Shown one piece after another: positions 20,848-30,413 of a DNA stretch of 64,000 nt. Within the stretch, counting starts at the first letter, position 1; every line of letters starts with the position of its first letter. The notes beneath the pieces are model-generated. The model was not told the DNA's origin and searched no databases. It was given only the letters and a program-made list of their open reading frames with translations. Position numbers and translations under genes: made by a program. The stretch is from Alphaproteobacteria bacterium MarineAlpha9_Bin3. Lineage in GTDB: Bacteria; Pseudomonadota; Alphaproteobacteria; TMED109. Where the stretch lies: contig PTKH01000002.1 in the NCBI GenBank assembly GCA_002937655.1, forward strand, positions 1 to 64,000. Reading direction: 5' to 3'.

Positions 20848-21210
20848 ATGTCAGCTATTAAAATGAGTAGATGGGTAAAAGTAAATAATTTTGAGACATT
20901 AATGAAATTGGGGGTGTACGCTAAAGAGCAAATAAAGGCACAAAGAGTTATTATTGATATCTTATTAGAAGTAAATGTAAATTCTCATGATGATAATATT
21001 AAAAACGTGCTATCATATGAAAAAATTATAGAAATAATTAATAATATCTCTAAACAAAACCATAAATATTTAGCTGAAACCGTAGCTGAAAATATTGCTA
21101 TAAAATGTCTTGAACTAGACAGAGCTAAATCTGTACACGTATCATTAAAAAAACCAGATATTATTTCTGGTAAAACGGAGGTAGGTGTAGAAGTTAAATT
21201 AAATAAATAA
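20848..21210 (+). CDS. folB: Dihydroneopterin aldolase FolB
   Basis: A 120-residue FolB-fold enzyme of folate synthesis that converts 7,8-dihydroneopterin to 6-hydroxymethyl-dihydropterin and glycolaldehyde. It shows MKLGVYAKEQIKAQRVIIDI, where E. coli has the family IGVYDWE-type opening, the segment LSYEKIIEIINNI, YLAETVAENIAIKCLE with the conserved Glu, and a C-terminal VSLKKPDII with the conserved Lys-Pro. Length is typical. The ATG directly follows the stop codon of the FolM-like gene, so translation is probably coupled. A possible terminator lies about 245 bases downstream. Confidence 0.93.
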   Translation: MSAIKMSRWVKVNNFETLMKLGVYAKEQIKAQRVIIDILLEVNVNSHDDNIKNVLSYEKIIEIINNISKQNHKYLAETVAENIAIKCLELDRAKSVHVSLKKPDIISGKTEVGVEVKLNK

Positions 21211-21452
21211 TGGTGATTGAATTTCAATATTTAAATTAAATTACTGATTTGTAAGTTTTTTTTCAACAAAATATAATTATTTACTAAAATTAATTGAAAA
21301 AATATTAATTATTAAATTATTTTTGTCAAAAGTCTTACTAAAAATGTAAGTATTCCGCCATTTTTGACAGCATGATTAAAAAATAGGCAATTTATATAAA
21401 TGCCCTTAATTTCTAACAATTTTTGATACAAATACGTATGATATCCACCTAG

Positions 21453-21461
21453 TTATCCACA
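21453..21461 (+). promoter_or_regulatory. Exact DnaA-box match TTATCCACA
   Basis: A perfect match to the consensus DnaA box. ATATCCACC (21441-21449) and, on the other strand, GTATCCACC (21467-21475) are 7-of-9 matches, so three box-like sequences fall within 35 bases. A GANTC site abuts the perfect box. The caveat is that the same bases also form one arm of a terminator-like hairpin, which could explain the repeated sequence without DnaA. Confidence 0.4.
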
Positions 21462-21482
21462 GATTCGGTGGATACTTTTTTT
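21454..21482 (+). terminator. Candidate rho-independent terminator after folB
   Basis: TATCCAC (21454-21460) pairs with GTGGATA (21468-21474) around a seven-base loop AGATTCG, and is followed by C and seven T residues (21476-21482). The upstream TATCCACC (21442-21449) could compete by pairing with GGTGGATA, giving an alternative 8-bp stem with a 17-base loop. The geometry is right for a terminator on the plus strand, although it lies well beyond folB. Confidence 0.5.
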
Positions 21483-21567
21483 ATGGCAGTTTTTCAACGT
21501 TTAAAGTAAAAAACAATTGGTATTTAATAATAAAAATAGTCAATATAAAAAATAAAGATTTTTTATA

Positions 21568-21576
21568 TGTTATAAT
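21568..21576 (+). promoter_or_regulatory. Candidate extended -10 promoter for uvrC
   Basis: TGTTATAAT is a perfect extended -10 element (TGn plus TATAAT), ending 36 bases before the uvrC start. No good -35 hexamer is present at the proper distance, which is acceptable for extended -10 promoters. Confidence 0.42.
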
Positions 21577-21612
21577 TACTACTATATATTATTTATAGAA
21601 ATAGGATTTTTT

Positions 21613-23559
21613 ATGAAAATATCTTCTAGTTTTAAATACGGTTCAGAAATTGTTAAAAAGTTTTTACCTGAGGTGGGAAATTCCCCAGGCGTATATTTTA
21701 TGTACGATAAAAATAAAACTGTATTATATATTGGTAAAGCAAAAAATCTTTATAAAAGAATTAGTTCTTATACAAAACAAGTAAATATGTCTGTCAGAAT
21801 ACAAAGAATGGTCTCTCATATTGATTCAATAGATTATTTAACTACTGATCATGAAGCTTCTGCTCTAATTTTAGAAGCAAATATGATAAAAAAGCATAAA
21901 CCTAAATATAATATATTATTACGAGATGATAAATCATACCCTTATATACTATTAAGGCAAGATCATGCCTGGCAGCAAATAATTAAAGCAAGAGGAAATA
22001 AATTACCAAAAAAAGGAGACTATTTTGGACCTTTTGCATCAGTTGATGCAGTTCATAAAACATTAAATGCAATGCAGAGAGCATTTCCATTAAGAACATG
22101 TAGTGATTTTGAAATTAATAATAGAAAAAGACCGTGTATACAATATCAAATTAAAAGATGTTCAGGACCATGTGCTAAACTAATAAATGAGCATGATTAT
22201 TTAGAAATAGTAAATGATGCAAAATTATTTTTGCTAGGCAAGAATAATAATTTACAACCAAAGCTAGAAAAAGAAATGGAACTAGCATCAAGTAATATGA
22301 ATTATGAAGAAGCGGCAATGTTAAGAGATAGAATAAGGGCACTGAATTTTATTCAAAAAGCGGAAGGAGCAGATTTTAGAAACATTAAAGATGCTGATAT
22401 ATTTTCTATTACTTCCATAGATAAGAATGAATTTAATACAGATTTTATTAAAAAAAGTGATATATATTATGCTATACAAGTATTTTTCTTTAGATCAGGA
22501 AAAAATTTTGGTAATAGAACACATTTTATTAAATTTATGGATAAAACCTCCATCAACTCTATTTTAAGTAGTTTTATTCCTCAGTTTTATGTTAATCAAA
22601 CTCCCCCTTCTATGATTTTAGTAAGCCACTTACCAAACGATTATAAATTAATTGAAAAAGCTTTTTTCTTAGAACATAAAAATAAAATAAAAATTATCTG
22701 TCCCCAAAAAGGTGAAAATAAAAAAGCAATTAATATGGGGATCGATAATGCAAAACGTGCCCTTGCAAAAAGAATGTCTGAATTCACAACTCATTCTAAT
22801 TTGCTTAAATCTCTATCAAGAGAAATAAAAATGCAAAGCATTCCAAATAGGATAGAAATATATGATAATTCTCATTTAAATGGCTCAAATATGTTAGGAG
22901 TTATGGTTGTATCCTCAAACTTAGGTTTTGAAAAAAATCAATATAGAAAATTTAATTTAAAAAATAATATTAGATTATTTAAAAGTAATGATGATTATGG
23001 AATGATAGAAGAGGTTTTTTATAGAAGATTTAAAGAAAATGCTTCAATAAAAAATAAATACTTATCTTTTCCTGATTTAATAATTATAGATGGAGGAAAA
23101 GGACAAGTAAATGTGGCTTGTAATGTATTAAAAAAATTAAACATAAATAACATTATTGTAATTGGAGTGTCTAAAGGGAAAGAGAGAAATGCAGGTAGAG
23201 AAAAAATATATTTTTCAAATATTGAAACTTATAGACCTAAAAATATTGAAAATATGCCTAATTTCAATCCTCTAATTTTAGATAAAAATAACCCAGTGCT
23301 ATATTTTATACAAAGACTTAGAGATGAAGCACATAGATTTGCTATAACTTCTCAAAGAAAAAAACATTTATCAAATGTAAAAAAATCAATATTAAGTGAA
23401 ATACCAGGTATAGGTCCAAGAAAAAGAAAAGCTTTAATGATGCAATTTGGTTCAGTTAAAAGTATATCTGAAGCTCCTTTGATAGAGCTGCAAAGAGTAA
23501 GAGGTATTAGCTCTAATTTGTCAAAGGAAATATTTAACTATTTAAAATCTATAAAATAG
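21613..23559 (+). CDS. uvrC: UvrABC excision nuclease subunit UvrC
   Basis: The dual-incision nuclease of nucleotide excision repair. The 648-residue protein has the N-terminal GIY-YIG domain (PGVYFMYDKNKTVLYIGKAK, about 27-46), a cysteine-bearing stretch PCIQYQIKRCSGPC, a UVR domain that binds UvrB (MNYEEAAMLRDRIRAL), the RNase H-like endonuclease domain (IEIYDNSHLNGSNMLGVMVV and PDLIIIDGGKGQ), and C-terminal helix-hairpin-helix motifs (SEIPGIGPRKRKALM). Length is normal. It has a large upstream region with its own candidate promoter and is followed by pgsA, a pairing also common in proteobacteria. Confidence 0.98.
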   Translation: MKISSSFKYGSEIVKKFLPEVGNSPGVYFMYDKNKTVLYIGKAKNLYKRISSYTKQVNMSVRIQRMVSHIDSIDYLTTDHEASALILEANMIKKHKPKYNILLRDDKSYPYILLRQDHAWQQIIKARGNKLPKKGDYFGPFASVDAVHKTLNAMQRAFPLRTCSDFEINNRKRPCIQYQIKRCSGPCAKLINEHDYLEIVNDAKLFLLGKNNNLQPKLEKEMELASSNMNYEEAAMLRDRIRALNFIQKAEGADFRNIKDADIFSITSIDKNEFNTDFIKKSDIYYAIQVFFFRSGKNFGNRTHFIKFMDKTSINSILSSFIPQFYVNQTPPSMILVSHLPNDYKLIEKAFFLEHKNKIKIICPQKGENKKAINMGIDNAKRALAKRMSEFTTHSNLLKSLSREIKMQSIPNRIEIYDNSHLNGSNMLGVMVVSSNLGFEKNQYRKFNLKNNIRLFKSNDDYGMIEEVFYRRFKENASIKNKYLSFPDLIIIDGGKGQVNVACNVLKKLNINNIIVIGVSKGKERNAGREKIYFSNIETYRPKNIENMPNFNPLILDKNNPVLYFIQRLRDEAHRFAITSQRKKHLSNVKKSILSEIPGIGPRKRKALMMQFGSVKSISEAPLIELQRVRGISSNLSKEIFNYLKSIK

Positions 23560-30143: not shown

Positions 30144-30413
30144 TTATTTTTTATTATTTTTTGTTAATAATGATAGTTTTTTTTCTAATAAATTAACTTT
30201 TTTTCTTAATTCTTCATTCTCTAATCTAGATTTTTCAACCATTTTTTTAACAGTTAAAAAATCTTTTTTATTAATCAACTCTAGTTTATATATTAATTTT
30301 TCAACTCTATCTTTTATTTTTTCTTCAATTTCTTCTTTAAATATTCCTAACGTCGAGGTAGCTCCTCCAATTAATTTAATAATATCTTCTTTTATAAATT
30401 CTTTATTAGACAT
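30144..30413 (-). CDS. ubiK: Ubiquinone biosynthesis accessory factor UbiK (BMFP family)
   Basis: An 89-residue protein of the BMFP family. The first half is an amphipathic helix region (LIGGATSTLGIFKEEIEEKI), and the second is a trimer-forming coiled coil (about 58-85, with LENEELRKKVNLLEKKLSLL). In gammaproteobacteria UbiK supports aerobic ubiquinone synthesis with UbiJ. It is divergent from hldD/lgt, and in alphaproteobacteria this gene is regularly found next to lgt. The nearby COQ9-like gene fits a quinone theme. Confidence 0.85.
   Translation of the reverse strand: MSNKEFIKEDIIKLIGGATSTLGIFKEEIEEKIKDRVEKLIYKLELINKKDFLTVKKMVEKSRLENEELRKKVNLLEKKLSLLTKNNKK

Follow-up and report, generated by a model that had tools for sequence, protein, structure and literature searches.

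A three-box element upstream of uvrC as a probable DnaA-reactivating (DARS-type) site in an alphaproteobacterial genome

In a 1.62-Mb alphaproteobacterial draft genome assembled in 72 contigs, a 402-base gap of 20% G+C (21211-21612) separates the folB stop from the uvrC start and carries an exact DnaA box, which raises the question of what this locus does. The gap lies in the window, i.e., the 64,000-bp stretch of DNA that was analysed (C12:1-64000), where its neighbours are uvrB and a pteridine-reductase-like gene on the upstream side and pgsA, moaD and moaE on the downstream side. A sequence-only reading of the locus had called it the largest intergenic gap, and it is the widest one between open reading frames of at least 80 aa, provided that the 89-aa open reading frame at 30144-30413 is counted as a gene. 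That reading had proposed a candidate replication origin, a DnaA-responsive control region ahead of uvrC, or a small RNA with a terminator, a simple competing alternative being a terminator hairpin that contains the box by chance. The motifs to which it had pointed, namely the exact box, a 7/9 box-like copy on each side of it, the abutting GATTC and an extended -10 ahead of uvrC, were all confirmed in the letters (Table 1).

The three boxes form a 35-bp element at 21441-21475, ATATCCACC-TAG-TTATCCACA-GATTC-GGTGGATAC, with spacers of 3 bp and 5 bp and with the third box inverted. When the gap was shuffled 3000 times (first order), 19 of the resulting sequences held an exact box, and exact boxes displayed no genome-wide enrichment, with 23 copies of TTATCCACA compared to 26 of the reversed word. 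Taken by itself, the exact box says little; what stands out from chance is the box triple with its spacing, which has one match in this genome. Separately, a 17-bp motif in the flank, TGATTAAAAAATA[AG]GCA, lies about 50 bp before the core (21373-21389); it is invariant in 7/7 family members, occurs once in the window, and is possibly a promoter or protein site.

Table 1. Positions in the window of the features of the folB-uvrC gap and of its two flanking genes.
Feature	Positions	Strand	Evidence
folB-like gene (dihydroneopterin aldolase)	20848-21210	+	TIGR00525, 57.6 bits, under its cut-off of 72.15
DnaA box III-like, ATATCCACC (7/9)	21441-21449	+	sequence; 21442-21450 invariant in 7/7 family members
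DnaA box II, exact TTATCCACA, 3 bp from box III	21453-21461	+	21453-21474 invariant in 7/7 family members
Hairpin of terminator-like form with its T tract, extending across boxes II and I	21454-21482	+	prediction; T tract not conserved class-wide
GATTC (GANTC) in the 5-bp spacer	21462-21466		7/7 in the family; family-level only
DnaA box I-like, inverted, GTATCCACC read from 21475 to 21467 (7/9), 5 bp from box II	21467-21475	-	spacing and orientation controls
Extended -10-like TGTTATAAT, possible uvrC promoter	21568-21576	+	sequence only
uvrC	21613-23559	+	TIGR00194, 513 bits

The arrangement of this element is that of the E. coli DARS cores. According to PMC5742627 and PMC10380432, DARS1 and DARS2 have equal box spacing with box I opposite to boxes II and III, and the head-to-head arrangement of boxes I and II is essential for ADP release. 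Read in reverse, the K-12 sequence before uvrB (DARS1, in the bioD-uvrB intergenic region of NC_000913.3 at ~813.1 kb) is TAATACACA-TGG-TTATCCACA-GGAAT-AGTGGATAA, and the DARS2 core (near mutH, ~2.969 Mb) is TTCTTCACA-ACT-CTATCCACA-GAAAA-GGTGAATAA. The window element likewise has three boxes, of which box I runs against the other two, and spacers of 3 and 5 bp; its 9-3-9-5-9 geometry and its orientations are identical to those of both cores. It also shares the exact middle box with DARS1, and both adjoin a nucleotide-excision-repair gene, although this gene is uvrB in E. coli and uvrC here. Dissimilar from DARS1, the window element is in the opposite orientation relative to the gene, and its box III contains CACC rather than CACA; moreover, DARS1 overlaps the uvrBp3 promoter, which PMC6015884 describes as repressed by DnaA in E. 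coli, whereas no promoter overlap is visible here. DARS2, by comparison, carries extra boxes and requires IHF and Fis sites. Its core, like Fis, is conserved among gammaproteobacteria related to E. coli (PMC4245941), and a review describes conservation of DARS-like sequences across many species of proteobacteria (PMC10380432).

E. coli also carries double boxes outside the DARS loci, and PMC11317965 presents direct double boxes 3 bp apart as the preferred binding arrangement of E. coli DnaA. By that account, the polA, purH and datA double boxes resemble the window element in that the exact box is preceded, at 3 bp, by a weaker one; however, they have no good inverted box at +5. A control was performed on the K-12 sequence at 11 of the 13 positions in the ChIP table of PMC11317965, with rne and rpoH left out. 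The inverted box at +5 scored 7/8 in DARS1 and DARS2, whereas none of the remaining nine double-box sites scored above 5.

A DNA search with positions 21311-21500 as the query against 97 relatives found the core just before uvrC in distant genomes. To define these occurrences, the 91 genomes with a uvrC match were reduced to 87 by the removal of G008, G026 and G034, which have no 5' end, and of G024, which has 23 bp upstream; 30 genomes from families missing in the first set, hand-picked and not random, were then added to give 117 uvrC upstream regions. Up to 900 bp upstream of uvrC were scanned with a 24-point score against TTWTNCACA, and a score of at least 19 was called a core. Cores were present in 56 of the 117 alphaproteobacterial regions, on the uvrC strand in every case, at 37-635 bp before the start of the uvrC match (median 143). 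Across these 56 class-wide cores, box II is nearly invariant and box III is degenerate but CAC-rich.

Both spacing and orientation of the boxes were found to be specific. Scores of at least 19 were reached by 49 of the 87 uvrC upstream regions, compared to none in 20 rounds of first-order shuffles. When spacings of 0-12 by 0-12 were examined in all eight orientations over the 87 regions, at a threshold of at least 20, the cell with gaps (3,5) and orientation ++- held 37 of the 87 regions, the next cell in the same orientation held 6, and the other orientations held at most 8. Furthermore, when no more than one mismatch was allowed, 138 of 299 genomes sampled from the phylum contained the full pattern, compared to 7 for the pattern with one extra spacer base and none for the reversed pattern. 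Among the 97 relatives, TTATCCACA-N6-GTGGATA with at most one mismatch was present in 43, compared to 1 in the reversed control, and 36 of these 43 carry it just upstream of uvrC (positions compared by hand). The signal thus vanishes once spacing or orientation is altered.

The core is not universal within the class, and several large families lack it before uvrC. No clear core was found in 61 of the 117 uvrC upstream regions; in families f64, f71, f72 and f73 none of the tested members has one, and the strict pattern occurs in just 6 of the 86 alphaproteobacteria of the phylum sample. In g7, a genus of the window's own family, a TTTTCCACA double box with 3-bp spacing is kept at a fixed distance and a good inverted box I is missing. 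Four of the seven g7 members reach 19 solely through their two strong boxes, and the count of 56 therefore includes some cores that have no real box I. The sequence upstream of uvrC in the g7 genomes (G012, G015, G018, G021, G023, G025 and G027) is possibly a decayed or altered site. Two further observations concern the spread of the pattern: genome G082 has no uvrC match, yet a core-like pattern is found on its contig C33, and some non-alphaproteobacterial genomes, of family f88, contain many copies of the pattern (e.g., 8, 5 and 5 matches in G130, G165 and G197).

The core is separable from uvrC. In G033, G047 and G051 the region upstream of uvrC lacks a core and a full core (scores 22-23 of 24) occurs at a different place: in G033 it stands between pgsA and ndk, and in G047 and G051 it has other genes as neighbours; the core is thus not merely part of a uvrC promoter. 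In G087, a core with a score of 20 follows folB, with uvrC about 110 kb off. A Pseudomonadota survey provided at least 118 stretches from named genomes (L154-L271), a sample among the matches listed. Sorting by nearest gene left 95 of the 118 listed stretches outside the query gene list, and clustering was then applied. Among these 118 matches listed, the three-box geometry occurs at clade-specific places: 12 stretches are at uvrB, 5 at uvrC, 21 in a cluster that contains a PriA gene, 10 at xseA together with a TolQ/ExbB-like gene, and further ones at other places, and one representative of each clade-specific neighbour gene was confirmed by HMM. Four of the uvrC stretches carry what we take to be alphaproteobacterial or Rickettsiales names, and the fifth is titled Alphaproteobacteria. 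The sole actinobacterial title among the 118 matches listed is Candidatus Planktophila lacus (L172); its neighbour genes are common to a Woeseiaceae group, so this contig may be misbinned.

The exact DnaA box, the AT-rich DNA and the GANTC site had made a replication origin conceivable, and exact boxes in AT-rich DNA are indeed shared with the alphaproteobacterial oriC beside hemE. The usual origin address in the alphaproteobacteria is the hemE side, at hemE-ppsR, and the window element is located elsewhere. In this genome the hemE region is on another contig, C56, where two exact DnaA boxes lie 87 bp apart, one at the hemE 5' end and one in the hemE-ppsR-type gene gap (L061:7631-7726, G000:C56); these two boxes mark the likely origin. 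When hemE is taken to stand in for oriC, the distance between hemE and the core is 0.65-1.2 Mb in three relatives whose genomes are closed or nearly so (the genome of the window is a draft), which would put the core mid-arm at 0.31-0.57 of the half chromosome; DARS1 and DARS2 lie at 0.66 and 0.41 of the half chromosome from oriC. Among the 118 pattern matches listed, just 2 are next to dnaA, rpmH or rsmG and 3 are next to hemE. The proposal of an origin in the gap was therefore rejected, and the gap is almost certainly not where this chromosome begins to replicate. A terminator hairpin or small RNA that contains the box by chance is very improbable as well. The hairpin with its seven Ts is predicted to be terminator-like (1 found compared to 0.1 in shuffles); however, a stretch of five Ts lies 14 nt or less from the core in just 10 of 56 cases, and among 57 changed arm cells in these cores 45 break the pair, 6 compensate and 6 still pair after a one-sided change. 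Within the family the arms are identical throughout, which leaves covariation at zero. Neither a covarying stem nor a T tract kept in relatives was found, and the rarity of the T tract together with the lack of arm covariation indicates that DNA boxes, not RNA pairing, are conserved. A search of Rfam at the gathering score returned no family in the gap, the one match being at chance level (E 4.1) and on the other strand. The three dyads described upstream of the core are present as letters and fold weakly better than shuffles (z -1.96 with the core removed); they show no conservation in the family alignment, and a structured RNA from them was rejected. The GANTC site is invariant in the family, but it occurs in 17 of the 56 cores, 7 of which come from the window's own family, and as a class-wide part of the core it was rejected. 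The sequence-only reading had stated that it would fall if a DnaA-box cluster lay elsewhere and relatives lost the motif while keeping the hairpin and T tract; an origin candidate with DnaA boxes does lie elsewhere, and the other half came out reversed, as the motif stays and the T tract is lost in relatives.

The proposal of a DnaA-responsive region ahead of uvrC fared better, in that geometry and conservation support a DnaA-box array, although the geometry argues more narrowly for a site of the DARS type. DnaA-dependent control of uvrC transcription, by repression or timing and with no nucleotide exchange, is a less likely reading, although the pattern usually lies just upstream of uvrC and always on its strand, and in E. 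coli the DARS1 region is where DnaA acts as a repressor of uvrB (PMC6015884). The distance between core and uvrC varies more than tenfold, full cores are found away from uvrC in four genomes, other clades keep the geometry beside other genes, and in the window about 90 bp separate the end of the core from the best -10. Transcriptional control, or simple inheritance, would also account for the constant strand and for the position next to uvrC. Titration, in which the boxes would merely sequester DnaA in the manner of datA, has a small chance of being correct: in its favour, E. coli DnaA binds preferentially to direct double boxes with a 3-bp spacer (PMC11317965), but sequestration has no need for an inverted third box at exactly +5, where E. 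coli datA scores 4/8.

Altogether, these comparisons argue that the 35-bp element is probably an alphaproteobacterial DnaA-reactivating core of the DARS type. Counting against this reading are the regions and families that lack a clear core and the imperfect boxes III and I of the window (7/9 each). In its favour, this genome encodes a DnaA that shares 40% identity with the E. coli protein and has an E. coli-like box-binding region; the GRDHTTV stretch is kept, and in the alignment the residues opposite Asp269 and Arg285 are conserved and Leu290 is replaced by Ile. A shorter DnaA-like match on contig C1 may be a relative of Hda. By analogy with E. coli, we infer DnaA binding, nucleotide exchange, and effects on initiation or on uvrC. 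DnaA would bind the direct pair of boxes III and II, 3 bp apart, as well as box I, which is inverted and lies 5 bp past box II; the molecules on boxes I and II would thereby face head to head. ADP-DnaA so held would lose its ADP, leave as apo-DnaA and rebind ATP, and the pool of ATP-DnaA would rise before initiation at the separate hemE-side origin. The position before uvrC may also let DnaA modulate this gene, and the element perhaps controls uvrC as DARS1 does uvrB at its promoter in E. coli.

On a wider scale, it is possible, though we hold this only tentatively, that the Pseudomonadota as a whole share an ancient device, the DARS-type core, and that each clade keeps it at an address of its own, often by DNA-repair or replication-restart genes, which would wire DnaA reactivation to repair. 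The addresses would be uvrC in many Alphaproteobacteria, as in the window, uvrB and mutH in the E. coli group, and priA and xseA in other gamma- and betaproteobacteria. The recharging of ADP-DnaA outside the E. coli group is little described, as far as the literature search showed; that search, which covered papers other than the founding DARS one, found no description of an alphaproteobacterial DARS, and novelty is not claimed. The analysis corrects the reading of the gap as a possible origin, and the element allows the head-to-head rule of DARS to be checked by evolution, beyond E. coli. In the alphaproteobacteria, a class in which replication control is a model topic, a 35-bp element of strict geometry, which the genomes of these relatives usually carry as a single copy, provides a testable address, and its conservation suggests that core-bearing bacteria, too, may recharge DnaA at a fixed site.
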